Part shown: one piece after another, positions 8,549-25,151 of the stretch
Position numbering within the stretch: position 1 is the stretch's first letter
Layout of the letters: each line of letters begins with the position of its first letter
Origin: a virus
Direction: 5' to 3' (one strand)
Virus record (IMG/VR): IMGVR_UViG_3300010885_033611
Coordinates: 1 to 25,151 of that record
Length of the DNA: 25,151 bases
Made by a program: the position numbers and the translations under genes
Notes under the pieces: model-generated
Database searches by the model: none
What the model saw: the letters and a program-made list of their open reading frames with translations, nothing else
Told to the model about the DNA's origin: nothing

Positions 8549-9127
8549 CTACGAGTTGGGGAGGGTCCTACCTACGAACTCGGGGTCGAACCAACCGACC
8601 GTCCGAACGATGTCCGTAGAGTAGCTCCACTTGTGGAGTTTGGAGTAGACGCCGTCGCCTTCGCGAGAGCCCGCCCCGTTGGTGTTGCCCTCTACGGTGT
8701 GAAACCCCTCGGCGTCAACGGCGACGACGATTCCGGTGTGACCCTGTACCCAGGTTCCCTTGCGGGCGGAGACCGCTCCCGCTCCATCCTTGGCCCGTAC
8801 CCAGATCATGCCGGGACGGACCTTGGTCTGGAAGTCGCCCTTCTCGGGGGTCGTGAACCCCTCGGGGAGCATCCTCCGCGTTCCCTTGTGCCACTGGGTA
8901 ATCGCCGACCCGCTACACCACAGGGGCGCGACGGTGAGGCCCTTAGCCTCCTTGACGCAGTAGGCGACGAACGCCGCACACCATGGCGACCCCGGCGAGA
9001 GGCCGACCGTCTTCTGGTACCTCTCGACGTCGGGGCCTCGGTTCATCCCCCCGACCTCGCGGACTCGTTTCGCGTCCTCGGCCTTTGCGACCTCGATCAA
9101 CTTCTCGGCGGGGGTCTGTTCGGTCAT
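8549..9127 (-). CDS. CHAP/NlpC-P60-type endolysin
   Basis: The 192-residue protein has the cysteine-peptidase layout. GSPWCAAFVAYCVKEA carries the likely catalytic C50, VQGHTGIVVAVD carries H130, and TVEGNTNG gives the third residue (E146 or N148). This is the pattern of CHAP or related amidase/endopeptidase domains, which cut peptidoglycan peptides or the glycan-peptide bond. There is no signal peptide, so export would need a holin, and a holin candidate follows 8 bases downstream. No separate cell-wall-binding domain is seen. ATG 9127 is preferred; the upstream frame is Pro/Arg shadow. A tail-associated hydrolase is less likely given the neighbours. Confidence 0.8.
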   Translation of the reverse strand: MTEQTPAEKLIEVAKAEDAKRVREVGGMNRGPDVERYQKTVGLSPGSPWCAAFVAYCVKEAKGLTVAPLWCSGSAITQWHKGTRRMLPEGFTTPEKGDFQTKVRPGMIWVRAKDGAGAVSARKGTWVQGHTGIVVAVDAEGFHTVEGNTNGAGSREGDGVYSKLHKWSYSTDIVRTVGWFDPEFVGRTLPNS

Positions 9128-9128
9128 C

Positions 9129-9515
9129 CTATCCTCGCTTGGAACGGCCCTTGGAGGCCTTGGTAGCGGACTTGAGGGCCGCAGGTGCGGGAACCTCGAC
9201 GGCGGCCTTCTTCGGGGCCTTCTTGGGGGCCGCCTTGGGGGTCTCGGGGAGCGGGTCAATGCGGAGGCCCTCGGTCGGGCGGGACTTGTCGAGCTTCACC
9301 GAGGCCTTCATCTTCGGGGTTGGCGACGCGCCCCGCTTGCGAAGGACGACGCAGACCTCCTCGAGGACGGCGAGGAGCTGCGACTCGTCCCAGAACGAGG
9401 TCCCGACGGAGACAGTGTGGGAGTTGATGTCTCGGAGGAGGAACCCATCGCGGGTAGCCTCCACCTTGGAGTCGACGAGGGCGCGAAAGACGGAGGCGGC
9501 GGAGATGATCGACAC
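9129..9515 (-). CDS. Hypothetical protein with Lys/Ala/Pro-rich tail (128 residues)
   Basis: The first 80 residues look folded (FRALVDSKVEATRDGFLLRD, then TSFWDESQLLAVLEEVCVVL). From about residue 90 the protein turns into a low-complexity basic tail with repeats of KAAPKKAPKKAA type and KASKGRSKRG at the end. The frame can begin at TTG 9527, but GTG 9515 has TTGGAG 6 bases upstream and is preferred. No family is recognised. It lies between tail genes and the endolysin, so it may be a minor tail or lysis-related protein. The basic tail might bind DNA or the cell envelope. Confidence 0.6.
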   Translation of the reverse strand: MSIISAASVFRALVDSKVEATRDGFLLRDINSHTVSVGTSFWDESQLLAVLEEVCVVLRKRGASPTPKMKASVKLDKSRPTEGLRIDPLPETPKAAPKKAPKKAAVEVPAPAALKSATKASKGRSKRG

Positions 9516-14786: not shown

Positions 14787-16592
14787 CTACTGGTAGCCCG
14801 CGGCCATGTAACGGTTCGACGCGAGACTTTGAGCTCGAGCGAAGGACCGAGCGATCGATTCCTCGTCCGCGAAGGCCGCGTCAACTCGGAGGTTGAAGTT
14901 GGTCTGGTTGTTTGTGACCGCCGCAGGGGCCGCCGTGGCCGCGGTCGCGGTCGCCGCCTTCTTCCCAGAGGCCCCTAGAACGGCCGCCGTAGCATAGGCC
15001 GCCATACCCGCCGCGGTGAGGCCCGCAGCTCCGGCGAAGTTGCCCTTGAAAGTCTCGATCGAGGCCATTGCTAGGGCCTCGTCGCCGAGGGCCGAGATAA
15101 CCGCGCCGATCGCCTTGCGGCCGATGTCTGCGATCTTCTCGCCGCTCGCGATACCGACTGCGACCATTTTCGCGTTCTGGGCGACGTACTTGTCGTAGAA
15201 CGCCGAGTGGCCCTCCTCTACCTTCTCGGTCGCGGTGCCCACCGTCTCCTCGGTAGTCGTGATCGCCTTGACGACCCCGTCCCAGATCTCCCCGACCTCG
15301 CCCGCGACAGTGCGCCACGAGTCAACGAACCCCTCGCTCGGGTTGAACCCGGTTGTGACACCCTTCCACCAATCGCCGGTCGCTTGCATGGTCGCGTCGA
15401 GTTCAATCTTCGCCGCCGCGGCCGACGCCTCGGCCCGCTTCCGAGCCTCCGCGACTGCGTCTGCGACTGGGTCCGCCTTCGGGGGCGCGGGAGCTCCGCC
15501 GCCCGTCGAAGGGGGCTTGGGTTCCTTGCCGATGTAGCGGTCGTAGAGCTCGTTGGCCTTCTCCCAGAGGAGCGAGAGGTCGGCCTCCGCCGAGTCGTAG
15601 GCCAGTTGGAGAGCTTCGGGCATGAAGGAGTAGGCGTTCTTCCCCGACTCCGCGAACCGCTTTGCGATCGATGAATAGAGCTCGCCCGTCTTCGTTGCGA
15701 CTCGGTCGGCCATTTCGCGCTCGGCGACCATCTTCCAGGACGCGCCGTACTGGGAGAGGTCGAGGTTCGCCACTTCGCGCTTCGCTTGTGCCTCGATACC
15801 GGCCCGTTGCTTCTCGACCTCCTTTCGGATCTCGGTGTCGCGAATGATGTCGCCCACTTTGATGAAGGAGGCCTTCAACGCTTGCATCTCCGCCTGGGCG
15901 CGATCGTTGGCCGACATCGCGAGGGCCGTCTCGTCGCCGATCACACCTTGGAGGCTCGTCGAGAGGTCTTGGTAGGCCTTCGAGAGGTTCTCCACGTTGG
16001 TGACCGCGGCCGCCGAGGCGTAGTTGTCCTGGGCCCGTTTGAGGGCGTCGAACTTTTCCGCGTCCGCGGCCGTGATCTGGCCGAGCTTCTCCATTACCCA
16101 GTAGAGCGTGTCGAAGGCGACCTTCAACATGGGGAACCCGTAGGTCACGAGGACCTCGACGATCTTCGCGAGGCCGTCGAAGACCGTGATCAACTTCTTC
16201 CCCATCTCCTCGGCCGACCCGCCGCCGAGGACCGCCTTCGCGAACGCACCGGAGATCGCGTCGAGGGACTTCTCCACGTCGTCCCAGACCTTCATCCCCT
16301 CGTCGCCCATCGACTTGAACAACTTCTCGACAGAGTTGAGGAAGAAGTCGGCCGCCATCTTCGCGCCGCCCAATGCGATCCCTGCTCCGCCGAGGGCCGC
16401 GATCGCCTTGGGTCCGCCGATCCTCTCGACGATCGCCCCGGCCGCCTGGTCGGCCTTGTCGGTCACCTCGCGGAGCTGGTCGGAGAGCTTCTTCCCCGAG
16501 GCCTCCATCTTCGCCATTCCGTCGCGGCCCTTGTCGAGGGCTCCGACGAGGCCACTAGAGTCGCCGTCGATCTCCGCTACGGTACGCGCCAT
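14787..16592 (-). CDS. Tail tape measure protein (601 residues)
   Basis: This is a long helical protein with the expected features. It has a coiled-coil N-terminus (AALDKG/KMEASGKKLSDQLRE type), a Gly/Ala hydrophobic segment near residues 60-85, a second hydrophobic stretch (LVTYGFPMLKVAFDTLYW), a Pro-rich break (PKPPSTGGGAPAPP) and a Gly/Ala-rich part at about 517-559. It lies right after the tail chaperones and before the tail-tip genes, as in most siphoviruses. Tape measure length sets tail length; at roughly 0.15 nm per residue, 601 residues would give a tail of about 90 nm, at the short end for siphoviruses. The start ATG 16592 lies 4 bases after the chaperone stop. Confidence 0.85.
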   Translation of the reverse strand: MARTVAEIDGDSSGLVGALDKGRDGMAKMEASGKKLSDQLREVTDKADQAAGAIVERIGGPKAIAALGGAGIALGGAKMAADFFLNSVEKLFKSMGDEGMKVWDDVEKSLDAISGAFAKAVLGGGSAEEMGKKLITVFDGLAKIVEVLVTYGFPMLKVAFDTLYWVMEKLGQITAADAEKFDALKRAQDNYASAAAVTNVENLSKAYQDLSTSLQGVIGDETALAMSANDRAQAEMQALKASFIKVGDIIRDTEIRKEVEKQRAGIEAQAKREVANLDLSQYGASWKMVAEREMADRVATKTGELYSSIAKRFAESGKNAYSFMPEALQLAYDSAEADLSLLWEKANELYDRYIGKEPKPPSTGGGAPAPPKADPVADAVAEARKRAEASAAAAKIELDATMQATGDWWKGVTTGFNPSEGFVDSWRTVAGEVGEIWDGVVKAITTTEETVGTATEKVEEGHSAFYDKYVAQNAKMVAVGIASGEKIADIGRKAIGAVISALGDEALAMASIETFKGNFAGAAGLTAAGMAAYATAAVLGASGKKAATATAATAAPAAVTNNQTNFNLRVDAAFADEESIARSFARAQSLASNRYMAAGYQ

Positions 16593-16596
16593 GGGG

Positions 16597-17315
16597 TTAG
16601 CCCTTCATCTTGGAGGCAAGCTCGGCCAACCGTTGGGTCGCCCGCTCCTTGCGTTCGTTGTAGTTCTTCTCGCCCTCTTGAACCTCGTGTTGGACCAACT
16701 CGGCGAGCTCGAGCTGCGAGTGGGTCAAGTCCGAAAGGGCGATCGCAGGACTACCCCGCTCGATCCACTTGTGCAACCTCAACGCGCCCCAGAACCCCGC
16801 AGGTTCGCGAAGGAGGACGGGGCAGGTCACCGGCAGTGCATCCTTGCCCTCGTAGCATAGACCCTGTCTGTAACCCATCGTACAACCCCTACGGTGACGC
16901 ACCTCGTCGGGACACTCCCAACACCGCATCGAGTGGGACGTGATTAGCCGGGCGAAGTCTCTCCACTCGACCCGGCTATGGTTTTTGGGTAGCCGACCGT
17001 CGCGACCTCCGAGGCGATCGCCGAAACGTCGTTCCACGGGATCCGAGTCACCCACGCCCGCCGCTCGGCCTCGGTACCCTCCGAGGGGAACGCAGGTTCC
17101 ACGCCCTCCGACCCTTTGAGACACGCGATGAGGAGGTCGAGGTGGATCTGGATGATGGAGGCAAGGCCGTCGACCTCGTCCTTTCGATCCATGCTCCGAG
17201 AGACCGCCTGGAAGTACCGAGCCCCCTCGAGGGCGTTCGGCTCCCGACACTGTAAACGGACCTTGGTCCGGTAGATCTCGACTTCGACCCAATGACTCTC
17301 AACGAATGTCAACAT
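16597..17315 (-). CDS. Tail assembly chaperone GT (-1 frameshift fusion product)
   Basis: Reading begins as G at 17315, shifts to -1 on CCCAAAA (16989-16983) and ends at 16597. The fusion would be 111 G residues plus 128 T residues, 239 in all. The T frame is open across the slip point. Its first ATG (16929) has no ribosome binding site, so frameshifting is the best explanation for its expression. The T part holds a Cys cluster (CWEC, then further Cys at positions 16, 26 and 36 of MRCWECPDEV onward) that may bind zinc, and a charged helical C-terminus. Family knowledge: in siphoviruses the G and GT proteins coat the tape measure during tail assembly and are made in a fixed ratio. Confidence 0.8.
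16929..16989 (-). promoter_or_regulatory. -1 ribosomal frameshift signal: slippery heptamer and pseudoknot-like stems
   Basis: On the minus strand C CCA AAA (16989-16983) matches the X XXY YYZ rule in the G frame. Four bases later come two interleaved 8-bp stems. Stem 1 is TAGCCGGG (16978-16971) with CCCGGCTA (16952-16945). Stem 2 is TCGAGTGG (16970-16963), inside the stem 1 loop, with CCACTCGA (16936-16929). The layout is that of an H-type pseudoknot, although no base separates the two 5' arms, so a few end pairs would have to open. The stem 2 3' arm covers the T-frame ATG. Confidence 0.75.
16944..17315 (-). CDS. Tail assembly chaperone G
   Basis: The 123-residue protein sits between the tail tube gene and the tape measure, the fixed place of G-type chaperones. 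It starts MLTFVESHWVEVEIYRTKVR at ATG 17315 with a very strong ribosome binding site (AAAGGAGGGG, 17330-17321). The middle is helical (DGLASIIQIHLDLLIACLKG). The last residues after K111 (TIAGSSGETSPG) are made only when no frameshift occurs. The protein would bind the tape measure with GT and recruit tail tube subunits. The sequence alone does not match a named family; order and the frameshift signal give the assignment. Confidence 0.8.
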   Translation of the reverse strand: MLTFVESHWVEVEIYRTKVRLQCREPNALEGARYFQAVSRSMDRKDEVDGLASIIQIHLDLLIACLKGSEGVEPAFPSEGTEAERRAWVTRIPWNDVSAIASEVATVGYPKTIAGSSGETSPG

Positions 17316-17320
17316 AGCGG

Positions 17321-17330
17321 CCCCTCCTTT
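17321..17330 (-). promoter_or_regulatory. Strong ribosome binding site of the G gene
   Basis: AAAGGAGGGG on the minus strand, 5 bases before ATG 17315, is the longest anti-Shine-Dalgarno match seen in the window. It fixes the G start and fits the high G output expected relative to GT. Confidence 0.7.
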
Positions 17331-17356: not shown

Positions 17357-18430
17357 CTACAAGACGTTCAAGAAGGCCCAATACATGAGATGACCGCTCG
17401 AGCTAGGGATGCCCTGGAACTTGATCGTGTTCGTCCGGTAGGAGTTGGTCTCCCCCGGAGTCGGGAACGCCGCGACCTGCGGGTTGGTGAGCGAGAAGAT
17501 GATGGAATAGTCCCCGACAAAGAGATTCAACACCAAACTATCGGGAAAGATCGTGTTCGCTTGAGCGGCGGTCCAATCGGGTTGGGTATCCTCTGCAAAA
17601 TCGGCCACGTCGAGCTCGATGGAGGGCGAGGCCGCAAGGTTGATGAACCCCAGACCGAACCCGTAGGTCTCGCGGAAGTCTGCCACGTCGTTGATCGCCC
17701 AACCCGTGTCGATCGTCACCTTGGACACCGCGTTGACGCTATCGAGCATGTCTGGAAGCGAGACCGTACAGTTCACCCCGACGATCGGGGCTTGGAGGTC
17801 GGGAGCAACGTAGACGGGTTCGACGCCGAGAAAGGACGTCACCGGCCGCCACTTGCCCTTGATCGTCCACTCGACCATGACCTTCTGACCGTACTCCCAA
17901 GAGATCTTCGGAACGCAGACGCAGTCGTAGGCCTCGAACCGCTTTCCGCTCGTCTCCTCGTAGGCGATCGAGAAGGGTTGAACCGCAAACTCTAGATCCC
18001 GGGTTGCGGAGGCGACAAAGTTCGGTTGCACGAACATTTCCGTGTAACCCGACTGGGTGATTCGGAACGGACAAGCCGCGAACAGGGGCGCGAGCTGCGT
18101 CTGGTCCGCAAGGGTGTTGTATTCCGCTCCGAGAGCCCAGAACAACTCCGTCGTGAGGGTGATGTCCCAACCGAGGCCGCCCGTCTTCGAGGACTGGTTG
18201 CCGCCCCAAGGCGTCAGAACGTCCGCCCGTTGGATGATACCCGCACCGCGGACCGAGAACTTGGGGGTACCGACCACGCGGACGGCGTTGGTCCCAACGT
18301 ACCCAGTCCCAGGGGGCGCAACCGCGGGCGTCGGGTCATCGTACTGGCCGAGGGCCGACTGCGTCTTGATGTAGACCGCCGAGAGGTTGGACGCGAGAAG
18401 GTACTGGGGAGTCGTAGTTACTGCGGGCAT
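17357..18430 (-). CDS. Major tail tube protein
   Basis: The 357-residue beta-rich protein lies between the tail terminator and chaperone genes, where the tail tube subunit is expected. It starts MPAVTTTPQYLLASNLSAVY at ATG 18430, with AAGG just upstream. It has many strands typical of tube proteins (TGGLGWDITLTTELFWALG, VMVEWTIKGKWRPVTS, LVLNLFVGDYSIIFSLTN). A two-fold pattern of similar beta-domains is possible at this length, as in some tube proteins of 300 or more residues. The C-terminus is HLMYWAFLNVL. The assignment rests on position and composition; no family signature is certain. Confidence 0.75.
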   Translation of the reverse strand: MPAVTTTPQYLLASNLSAVYIKTQSALGQYDDPTPAVAPPGTGYVGTNAVRVVGTPKFSVRGAGIIQRADVLTPWGGNQSSKTGGLGWDITLTTELFWALGAEYNTLADQTQLAPLFAACPFRITQSGYTEMFVQPNFVASATRDLEFAVQPFSIAYEETSGKRFEAYDCVCVPKISWEYGQKVMVEWTIKGKWRPVTSFLGVEPVYVAPDLQAPIVGVNCTVSLPDMLDSVNAVSKVTIDTGWAINDVADFRETYGFGLGFINLAASPSIELDVADFAEDTQPDWTAAQANTIFPDSLVLNLFVGDYSIIFSLTNPQVAAFPTPGETNSYRTNTIKFQGIPSSSGHLMYWAFLNVL

Positions 18431-18434
18431 GGGG

Positions 18435-19067
18435 TCACCTTGCGAGGGAGCGGCGTTGGTAAACTTGGATCGACGCGCGGACGGTCTGTTGGATCACGGT
18501 CTGTCCGGTCTCGTCGGTACCGATCACAAAATCTTGTGGGGTCACCCCCGAGAAGGGGCTCGAGTTGTAGATCCCTGTCCCCGGCCAGTTCGGCGTCGTT
18601 CGGTTGCGGGCGTCGAGGTTCGGGAACCCCCATACGGGAGAGGTGAGGATCAACACAATCCCTTCGACGTAGGCGCGGAGGGCCGTCTCGTAGGTTTCTT
18701 GGGTAAACGGGATCGCAGGGTCGCCCTCGGCCGCCTCCACGAGAGGATGCACCCCGTAGGCGTCGTAGAACCCCCAGTCGGAGGTCACCGCAATCTCGAG
18801 CTCGTGGACTTGATCCATCGCTCCGAGGGCGTCGGTCACGACCGAGTCCGTCCGAACGACCGAGAGCCCGATCGCCGGTTGCTTCTCCGCGGTGAACAGG
18901 GCTCGACGAGACGTGAAACAGTTCCCCGCCACGGGAGCGGGGAGACCCGGCGCACCCATGGCCTTCAACCATGCGGAGTCGCAGACGGTCGCCCAGTTCG
19001 CCACCACTAGGTCGATCGCCGCGTTGGCGACGATCTGGGGGCCGTAGCTTGTCGAGGGGTTACTCAC
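18435..19067 (-). CDS. Tail terminator / completion-like protein (210 residues)
   Basis: The start is GTG 19067, overlapping the previous stop (GTGA). The protein contains TYETALRAYVEGIVLILTSP and VIQQTVRASIQVYQRRSLAR, an alpha/beta pattern like tail terminator proteins, which cap the tube at the head end. It lies directly before the tail tube gene, as in lambda-like order. No exact family was recognised, so a head-tail joining protein remains possible. Confidence 0.65.
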   Translation of the reverse strand: MSNPSTSYGPQIVANAAIDLVVANWATVCDSAWLKAMGAPGLPAPVAGNCFTSRRALFTAEKQPAIGLSVVRTDSVVTDALGAMDQVHELEIAVTSDWGFYDAYGVHPLVEAAEGDPAIPFTQETYETALRAYVEGIVLILTSPVWGFPNLDARNRTTPNWPGTGIYNSSPFSGVTPQDFVIGTDETGQTVIQQTVRASIQVYQRRSLAR

Positions 19068-19705
19068 AGTCCGATCTTCCCACCGTTGAGGGCGAACCTC
19101 CGAGCGAACTCGGAGTCGAGGATACCCACTTTACCACCCATGGCCGACGCTTGCACGCCCAATGCGTAGCGGAGGTCGGCGATGAAGGGCTCGCCGAAGT
19201 TGACGAGGGGACGCTTGGGAGTGGGGACCGAGGCGACCCCCTTCTGGTTCCTACTCGTGCGGCGAACGTAGGCCCCTGTCCCCGAGTTGTGGTTCGCGGC
19301 GTAGGGTACCGCCGAGCCCATGACGACCGAGTTCCCGCGGACCTCCCAGACGTACTCGGGGTGATTGACCATCGCGAACGACGGGTAGAGACGCTCCCCC
19401 GACCCCGCAGCTCGACCCGGCGACTTCTCCCACCGCAGGATGTGTCGCGCCTCGATCCGCTTGGTACCCAAGGCCCACCGCTTGATCGGGAGCCAGTATT
19501 TCTTCTCGGCGTAGGTGTACCGAGGCCACGTCGAACCCGTCGACGCACCCTGCGTCATGAACATTTCTTGGCGCGACCGCGCCCAGACCCGCGAGAGGGG
19601 CGAGTTCCGGTTGCCCCAGAACTTCGACCAATCGCCCGCGTTGCGAATCGCGAGCTCGAGGGCCTCGACCCCGTCCTGGGCGTTGTTCTTGAGGGTGAGG
19701 AACAT
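19064..19705 (-). CDS. Mu gpG-like virion morphogenesis (head-tail completion) protein
   Basis: The 213-residue protein shows the pattern of the phage virion morphogenesis (Mu gpG/HK97 gp10-like) family. It has a basic N-terminal helix, WPRYTYAEKKYWLPIKR, RIEARHILRWEKSPG, then NSVVMGSAVPYAANHNSGTG, where 'VGS..YA..H..G' is the usual signature. The C-terminal part includes PKRPLVNFGEPFIADLRYAL. Such proteins act at the head-tail junction or in tail completion. The position between connector and terminator genes agrees. Its end overlaps the next start. Confidence 0.75.
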   Translation of the reverse strand: MFLTLKNNAQDGVEALELAIRNAGDWSKFWGNRNSPLSRVWARSRQEMFMTQGASTGSTWPRYTYAEKKYWLPIKRWALGTKRIEARHILRWEKSPGRAAGSGERLYPSFAMVNHPEYVWEVRGNSVVMGSAVPYAANHNSGTGAYVRRTSRNQKGVASVPTPKRPLVNFGEPFIADLRYALGVQASAMGGKVGILDSEFARRFALNGGKIGL

Positions 19706-23190: not shown

Positions 23191-23460
23191 ATGCTAACCC
23201 GACGACAACGGATCCTTCTCGATCTTTTGACCCAGTGCCACCGCTTGGACTTCCACCCAAGCCCGCCGCACCTTGGGGGCCTCCTCGTTCGGGCGACCGA
23301 GTGGCCCATGGGGACCTCCCCCGCCGCCGTTCGCGCCGAGCTCGTGCGACTCCTCGAGGCGGGGGCTATCCTCCACGTCGAGAAGGGGTCGGGCGCGGCC
23401 CCGGCGAAGTACGCCCTCGCCGACTGCGACTGCGACCGTTGCAAGTCTCACCGCTTGTAG
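23191..23460 (+). CDS. Small winged-helix-like DNA-binding protein, opposite to the late operon
   Basis: This is an 89-residue protein on the plus strand inside an otherwise minus-strand head module. Residues 4-15 (RRQRILLDLLTQ) and 42-56 (TSPAAVRAELVRLLE) fit helices 1 and 3 of a winged helix, followed by GAILHVEKGSGAAPAKYALA, a hairpin wing. The C-terminus has three Cys (CDCDRC). Codon choice is like the phage genes, so it is probably real. AGG near 23181 is only a weak ribosome binding site. It ends 13 bases inside the 3' end of the MuF gene. Likely a transcription regulator of the adjacent promoter region; an exact family is not recognised. Confidence 0.65.
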   Translation: MLTRRQRILLDLLTQCHRLDFHPSPPHLGGLLVRATEWPMGTSPAAVRAELVRLLEAGAILHVEKGSGAAPAKYALADCDCDRCKSHRL

Positions 23461-25151
23461 ACTCCAATGTAGCCGCACCGACAGTCCGAGCGGCCCTCGC
23501 AGTTCGGGTCGGGTAGCGGCGGGAGCTTCAACTGGTCGCCGACCACGAACGAGGCCACGTCGTAGCGGTTCCCGTCCGCCTCCGCGCACACCTCGCAACG
23601 GTTGGCGTCGGGGATGGAGGTTCGAATGACCTCGTTCGGGACTGGGAGGTTCGCACCGGGGGCCGCCGCATAGGATGACATACGAGAGGCCGAGGCGACC
23701 ATGTTCCGCGAGCCCGCCGCCTCCTTGACGAGACCGGCGATCGTGATCCGAGTCGCGAAGTTGTCGAGGTCGCCGCCCGCTAGGATCGCCGCCTCGACTT
23801 CACCCTGTACCCTGTCCGCCATGACCTCGCCCGCCTTCTGCGTCGCCGCCGCCGCCGTGGCGAACTGGGCGTTGGCCGCCGTAGTCGCCGCCGCCGCGAG
23901 TTGCGCGGACTCCGCCGAGGTAGTCGCGCCCGCCGCCGCACCCGAACGGACCGACCGCTTGATCTCGTCCGTCACCTCGGCCTCGGTCGCCGCCCGAAGG
24001 CCACCCGCCGCCGCCGTCAAGGCCGCCTGGTACTCGGCGACGTAGGTCGCCCAGATCCGATCCCGCTCCCCCGCTTGCCAACCGTCCGCGAGACCACCGA
24101 TCACTGCAATGCGATGACGACCTGCGATCTCGTCGATCTTCACCGCGAGCTGGGCGTCGAGGTCGTTACGAGTCTCCGCAAGGGTGACCCAACCTACTAC
24201 CGTCTCCTCGGGTCGGAGTTCTCGGTAGGTTGTGAACTCGCGGCCGTCGCCGCCGATGACGAGGACCCCTTCCCCTTCTCCGTCGCCGAGGTCACCGCCG
24301 AGCTCGCCCAACGTCGAGGCGGTGCGGTGGGCGCGGGTGGCATAGCCTACCAGGAGCGACCGAACCCAACCCCGAGCCGCGTCGCCGCCCCGCAGGGCGT
24401 AGGCGTGGAAGGAGGGGCCGCCGTCCGCGAAGGACTTGGACGACAAGTGCCGCGGGTAGACCTTGGAGAAGTAGTCCGCGAGGCCGAGGACACGCGACCA
24501 GGCTAACCGCTTGCCCGCCGCAAGGTCGCGGGCGATCATGAGGGCCTCGGAGTCGGTCGTCCGAGACTTGCCCGCGATGCGGTGCGCGAGGATAGCCGCC
24601 GCCGCCGCCGCCATGACCTTGTCGGGAACGACCACCTCGGGATGTTCGCCCAGTGCCGCCGCGATGCTCGAGGCCTCCGACGCCGAGAGGGATGGAGACA
24701 CCGGCGCAAAGGCCGACGCTTCACCGATCGCCGCCGGGACTTCGACGTTGCCCTCGAGGACGACCTGCGGGACGGCGTCTGCGGGGACGCCCTCGACCGT
24801 TGCCACTGGGACCGCCGCCACTGCCTCCGCCGCGACGGGGGCCGCGAGAGAGAGGCGCGTCTGGGCGTCAACGAGCTGTCGCGCCACTGGTTCGGCAAGG
24901 CCCGAGATCGTTAGAAGGATGACCGCCGCCTCGGGGGCGAGAGGCGTCGCCGAGTTCGGGGAGAGCATACCGAGGACCGTCGTCGCAGTCGTCGCCGTCG
25001 CAGCTCCAACCGGTTCGGGGAGGTCGGCCACTACCTCGACGGGGAGCTCGGGCGCACCGATCACACGACGCGCCCACTTCTCGTCGTCGGGGCCGCGAGT
25101 GAGGAGACCCGCTTGGATCCCGTTGACGTAGGCCGCCCAACCGTCGAACCC
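23448..25151 (-). CDS. Portal/MuF-type head protein, 5' end outside window
   Basis: The frame is open to the window edge, giving at least 567 residues. The first 37 visible residues (GWAAYVNGIQAGLLTRG, then RRVIGAPELP) resemble the end of a portal protein. A long Ala/Val/Pro-rich segment follows. The helical module near 200-265 includes LADYFSKVYPRHL and RGGDAARGWVRSLL, a pattern I recall from phage structural polyproteins. The C-terminus fits the MuF minor head domain: SIPDANRCEVCAEADG with C519/C522 and later C551, C557 and C559 (DPNCEGRSDCRC). MuF-type proteins act in head assembly and DNA entry. Whether this is one fused portal-MuF protein needs the sequence beyond the edge. Confidence 0.7.
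   Translation of the reverse strand, partial: GFDGWAAYVNGIQAGLLTRGPDDEKWARRVIGAPELPVEVVADLPEPVGAATATTATTVLGMLSPNSATPLAPEAAVILLTISGLAEPVARQLVDAQTRLSLAAPVAAEAVAAVPVATVEGVPADAVPQVVLEGNVEVPAAIGEASAFAPVSPSLSASEASSIAAALGEHPEVVVPDKVMAAAAAAILAHRIAGKSRTTDSEALMIARDLAAGKRLAWSRVLGLADYFSKVYPRHLSSKSFADGGPSFHAYALRGGDAARGWVRSLLVGYATRAHRTASTLGELGGDLGDGEGEGVLVIGGDGREFTTYRELRPEETVVGWVTLAETRNDLDAQLAVKIDEIAGRHRIAVIGGLADGWQAGERDRIWATYVAEYQAALTAAAGGLRAATEAEVTDEIKRSVRSGAAAGATTSAESAQLAAAATTAANAQFATAAAATQKAGEVMADRVQGEVEAAILAGGDLDNFATRITIAGLVKEAAGSRNMVASASRMSSYAAAPGANLPVPNEVIRTSIPDANRCEVCAEADGNRYDVASFVVGDQLKLPPLPDPNCEGRSDCRCGYIGVYKR

Follow-up and report, generated by a model that had tools for sequence, protein, structure and literature searches.

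Genes G and T of the uncultured tailed phage analysed here very probably encode tail assembly chaperones, G and the fusion GT, by way of a lambda-type programmed -1 frameshift that is most likely stimulated by a downstream hairpin. The frameshift is strongly supported by a slippery heptamer kept in every relative compared, by the lack of a T start codon in several of these relatives and by the predicted fold of G. The signal is a genuine, conserved one of the lambda G/GT type with a hairpin as its probable stimulator, found in a phage lineage for which the GenBank phage collection gave no match. As a mechanism it is familiar since the work on lambda, and the locus adds a case of this kind.

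In the proposed mechanism, most ribosomes would translate G and terminate at 16944. In a minority, tRNA-Pro on CCA and tRNA-Lys on AAA would slip one base back to CCC AAA, after which these ribosomes would read on into T and produce GT as a fusion about 239 aa long. The imperfect hairpin of 9 + 4 bp, located 4 nt past the heptamer, most likely acts as an obstacle to the ribosome and makes slipping more frequent. We infer that frameshifting takes place here at a rate which the hairpin would increase. The outcome would be an unequal G:GT ratio in which, by analogy with lambda, G would coat the tape measure protein and GT would recruit the tube protein.

Gene order around G and T

The source record is a 25,151-base IMG/VR virus sequence, referred to at its full length as the window. 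Its structural genes lie on the minus strand, as do all features of the G/T region described below. Gene G (16944-17315) is read from an ATG at 17315 through 123 codons to a TAA at 16946-16944, which gives a short zero-frame product of 123 aa. Its Shine-Dalgarno sequence, AGGAGGGG, was read directly at 17321-17328. The annotation of G as a tail assembly chaperone draws on this ORF and its Shine-Dalgarno sequence, on homologues in viral contigs, on the predicted fold and on matches of homologues to PHROG 344. The T coding region (16597-16986; 129 aa) runs in the -1 frame from K111 of the fusion to a TAA and is conserved from the slip site on; its end at 16597 is closely followed by the next ORF, which starts with an ATG at 16592. 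The original prediction that the G and T frames overlap, with T in the -1 frame, was borne out by direct reading of the ORFs.

The ORFs flanking G and T, of 357 and 601 aa, have the order and size of tube and tape measure genes and match no family. Position makes the ORF upstream of G (17357-18430) a probable major tail (tube) protein, and position together with its length of 601 aa makes the ORF downstream of T (14787-16592) a probable tape measure protein. Searches of Pfam, PHROGs and NCBIfam gave nothing significant for the window's own G and T or for the flanking tail ORFs.

The slippery heptamer

The heptamer C CCA AAA occupies 16989-16983 in the context TAC CCA AAA ACC of the G frame, where CCA AAA encodes P110 and K111; in the -1 frame the tRNAs would meet CCC AAA, and this frame stays open from the heptamer to 16597. 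In-phase X XXY YYZ heptamers are infrequent in the minus-strand ORFs, with 6, this one among them, in 5,064 codon positions, an approximate count since one ORF was entered out of frame. The relatives used for comparison are 46 IMG/VR loci found by searching with T and G. All 46 have an in-phase X XXY YYZ heptamer at the homologous place near the end of G. The perfect C CCA AAA of the original prediction thus holds in its letters in the window and in its phase throughout the relatives. Most of the relatives carry C CCA AAA; C CCC CCT is found in L064-L069 and L080, and A AAT TTT in L046. Selection for slippage predicts that the tandem-slip pattern is kept while the letters change, and the observed variation fits this.

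The most efficient heptamer classes in Escherichia coli include V_VV.A_AA.R and H_HH.U_UU.Y (PMC4066793). C CCA AAA belongs to the former and A AAU UUU to the latter, by E. coli rules that may not be those of the host.

The downstream hairpin

After a 4-nt spacer the heptamer is followed by stem 1, predicted by folding, with its 5' arm UAGCCGGGU at 16970-16978 and its 3' arm GCCCGGCUA at 16945-16953. The stem had been described as 8 bp long; these pairs are present in the window, and the length becomes 9 bp when the closing U-G is counted. In the minimum free energy fold it is continued across a C-C mismatch by a 4-bp inner stem, GAGU (16965-16968) with ACUU (16955-16958), whose pairs are not individually kept among the relatives. 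The extended hairpin has an energy of -21.7 kcal/mol. Compared with dinucleotide shuffles, its minimum free energy in the window has z = -3.1, and compared with T recoded synonymously, z = -2.7. Values of -2 to -3.6 against synonymous recoding were obtained for the window, L038, L041-L043, L045, L022 and the L064-L080 group, and a similar hairpin is present in most relatives.

One pair of stem 1 (columns 27-48 of the alignment), between the third positions of codons Arg5 and Ala12, is the main one free to vary. Among 28 sequences it is G-C in 14, U-A in 4 and A-U in 2, and unpaired in 8. On the tree, the A-U sequences L039 and L045 stand apart from each other, and those with U-A fall in one clade. 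The pair has the highest clade-level pairing, rank 1 of 120, among third-position pairs with at least three Watson-Crick types. Covariation of the stem as a whole is small and nearly all of it comes from this pair. The third base of the Arg13 codon also pairs in stem 1, within the 3' arm, and this codon is CGG in 27 of the 27 sequences compared, while most other invariant arginines vary more and use 3-5 codons. Frame overlap does not explain the frozen CGG, because in about half of the 27 sequences G has already ended before Arg13.

In lambda the heptamer alone is usually said to suffice. The same might apply here, with the hairpin a side effect of conservation in two coding frames that overlap. 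It is in keeping with this reading that the heptamer is kept in every relative and the hairpin is not, and that several stem pairs are forced by conserved residues (Ser-Arg-Val and Ala-Arg-Leu). The synonymous-recoding controls, the CGG codon frozen beyond the G stop and the three switches at the variable pair argue against it, and we consider it unlikely. The hairpin is instead a probable stimulator, judged from sequence comparison, and one that is not universal in the relatives.

Several relatives depart from this pattern. In one clade (L051, L054, L055, L059 and L061-L063) the hairpin is weak, with z about 0 against recoded controls and a U-C mismatch in stem 1. The same clade has its G stop, TAA, one codon after the heptamer (CCA AAA ACC TAA), a correlation seen in a single clade; this early stop is perhaps a different stimulator. 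The hairpin of L049 lies in between, and that of L046 is a different one, in another register. A second downstream hairpin was considered and is not consistently kept in the relatives, and a search of Rfam gave nothing beyond one chance hit. As a separate observation, L022 is near L070-L078 in both G and T, yet its junction, including the hairpin arms and the late G stop, is like that of L042. This pattern points to an exchange at the frameshift signal, by recombination or local conversion.

The interleaved stem

A second stem is interleaved with the first one, its 5' arm UCGAGUGG lying at 16963-16970 and its 3' arm CCACUCGA at 16929-16936. Its 8 bp are exact in the window, and the first U of UCGAGUGG is a base shared with stem 1. 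The frameshift could be the same one as proposed above and be stimulated, at least in the small clade of the window, by an H-type pseudoknot of stems 1 and 2. Both stems are exact in the window, and an 8-bp Watson-Crick match between the stem 1 loop and the 41 nt downstream arises in 0.36% of mononucleotide shuffles. When the contig is divided into 7,170 overlapping 60-nt windows, a pair of interleaved 7-bp stems turns up in 6, some of which are probably this site. A rough calculation gives the knot -21.2 kcal/mol, which makes it as stable as the extended hairpin (-21.7 kcal/mol) over the same part; on the same rough scale, the hairpin with another small one following it is more stable, at -26.5 kcal/mol.

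The 5' arm of stem 2 also pairs within the extended stem 1 hairpin, in GAGU/ACUU, which had been overlooked in the original prediction. Stem 2 and the extended hairpin compete because both use the bases of the inner stem. The linker of 9 nt between the 5' arm of stem 2 and the 3' arm of stem 1 is, moreover, long for an H-type pseudoknot.

The relatives weigh against the knot as well. Apart from the window, all 8 pairs of stem 2 occur only in L037 and L038, which are nearly identical here. In the next relatives, L039 and L040, two central pairs are lost and unrepaired. Other relatives have 2-6 of the 8 pairs, up to three of which are dictated by the conserved Trp8 and Ser17-His18, and the 3' arm is not conserved. 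Outside the group of the window, L037 and L038, no other interleaved stem beyond chance was found in any relative. We therefore regard a pseudoknot stimulator as quite improbable, and it is possible that stem 2 is a local addition in the clade of the window and not the signal.

The earlier reading of two interleaved 8-bp stems, 4 bases after the heptamer, is accordingly retained in part. Both stems exist in the window and the downstream structure is supported as a hairpin; across the relatives stem 1 holds in most clades and stem 2 fails, so the H-type arrangement does not stand. Nor can the signal be called unusually complete, the pseudoknot not being borne out by the relatives.

A slim chance is given to a broader scheme in which the family swaps its stimulator. 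The hairpin would serve in most members, the clade of the window would have gained an alternation of hairpin and pseudoknot, and the L051-L063 clade would have lost the hairpin as its G stop moved to one codon after the heptamer. If this were true, the G:GT ratio could be adjusted by stem 2 competing for the bases of the inner hairpin stem. A heptamer followed by a hairpin remains the preferred reading of the signal.

The T region and the predicted GT fusion

The predicted GT fusion consists of G residues 1-110 followed by 129 residues of the T frame from K111, and its junction reads ...ATVGYP-K-NHSRVEWRDFARLITSH... Conservation of the T protein sets in at the codon directly following the slip, and 42 of the 135 columns in the alignment of the relatives are invariant. 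In six relatives (L041, L043, L044, L047, L048 and L079) the T frame lacks any ATG, GTG or TTG up to and including the first 35 conserved residues. T could therefore be made only as a fusion in these six. Start candidates in the other relatives are weak, lie in differing places and lack a consistent Shine-Dalgarno sequence. The original prediction had T without a ribosome binding site of its own; these six relatives lack any upstream start in the T frame, and no start that is consistent exists in the family as a whole.

A separate T gene with its own start inside G, that is, an ordinary overlap, is very improbable. In its favour, the T frame of the window has no stop for 103 codons upstream and includes a GTG, 22 codons before the slip, with a Shine-Dalgarno-like tetramer. 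The six relatives without a T-frame start before or near the conserved part, the inconsistency of candidates elsewhere and the kept phase of the heptamer, which would not be preserved if T were initiated separately, led us to reject this possibility. Transcriptional slippage on the five A of CCCAAAAAC is rejected as scarcely credible, since a run of five is short for polymerase slippage and relatives have CCCCCCT or AAATTTT at this place, the tandem-codon pattern being what persists. Programmed -1 frameshifting of the ribosome is retained as the route to GT.

The T domain contains four invariant cysteines, C22, C25, C35 and C55 counted from the slip (CWEC...GC...TC; T residues 22-55, window 16923-16822). 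They look like a metal-binding knuckle. A structure model of T (pLDDT 78) gave no credible match in the PDB.

Identity of G

PHROG 344 (tail assembly chaperone) was matched by 3 of 12 G homologues, with a best E value of 0.0019. The predicted structure of G (pLDDT 82.5) was compared with solved chains, and the top matches were 3fgx (Z 6.1), 3klu (5.5) and 2ob9, the HK97 tail assembly chaperone (5.3). The phage-like-element protein 5ir0 followed with Z 4.9, and matches from rank 5 on begin at 3.0. G thus resembles the HK97-type chaperone 2ob9, as well as 3fgx and 3klu, in predicted fold over 90-96 residues at 6-16% sequence identity, with Z of 5-6 being modest on the scale of the tool. A sequence-profile search of solved structures with G returned nothing, including no match to 3fgx, 3klu or 2ob9. 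Several of the viral structure models resembling G are annotated as tail assembly chaperones. Taken together, the modest scores, the frameshift and the gene order firmly identify G as a tail assembly chaperone.

Comparison with known frameshift signals

In lambda, G/GT is produced by a -1 tandem slip near the end of a gene lying between the tube and tape measure genes (PMC5009743; Xu, Hendrix and Duda 2004 cited there). Lambda T is made only as a fusion, and the short product is in excess at 30:1 (PMC5009743). The present locus is alike in the predicted tandem -1 slip near the gene end, in a T that would be made only as a fusion, with the short product in excess, and in the order and size of its flanking ORFs, which are putative tube and tape measure genes. 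The lambda heptamer is G GGA AAG, unlike the C CCA AAA found here. Further differences from lambda are the hairpin 4 nt downstream and a T with four invariant cysteines, and neither the region nor T has detectable sequence similarity to known phages.

An HK97-like cluster gave a 6-7% shift in a reporter (PMC3711429). In IS3-family elements and dnaX, a heptamer is accompanied by a downstream hairpin, or in IS3 a pseudoknot, as a stimulator (PMC4066793, PMC3711429). The present signal is similar in its heptamer and downstream hairpin. It differs from them in that the genes and products are unrelated and in that no conserved upstream Shine-Dalgarno stimulator is seen, no such element being consistently kept across the relatives.

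The phage group

Comparison of DNA and protein with 50,697 phage records gave no match for the region, T or a capsid-like ORF. A search with T in GTDB 220, with one genome per species, found no relative, and no host is therefore assigned. For this unmatched phage group the locus provides a firm functional anchor in its tail chaperone, along with tube and tape measure genes assigned by position. It also provides a natural set of signals varying in heptamer, hairpin and stop position, which can be used to ask what share each element has in the G:GT ratio.

Elsewhere in the window, a CHAP-domain endolysin is encoded at 8549-9259 (PHROG 9589, E 3e-18). The stretch 19064-19705 weakly matches Phage_tail_S or a tail completion or neck protein, and 23448-25064 has a faint Mu F-like match. 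Together these last two matches hint that a phage otherwise without matches carries a head and neck module of the Mu-like type.
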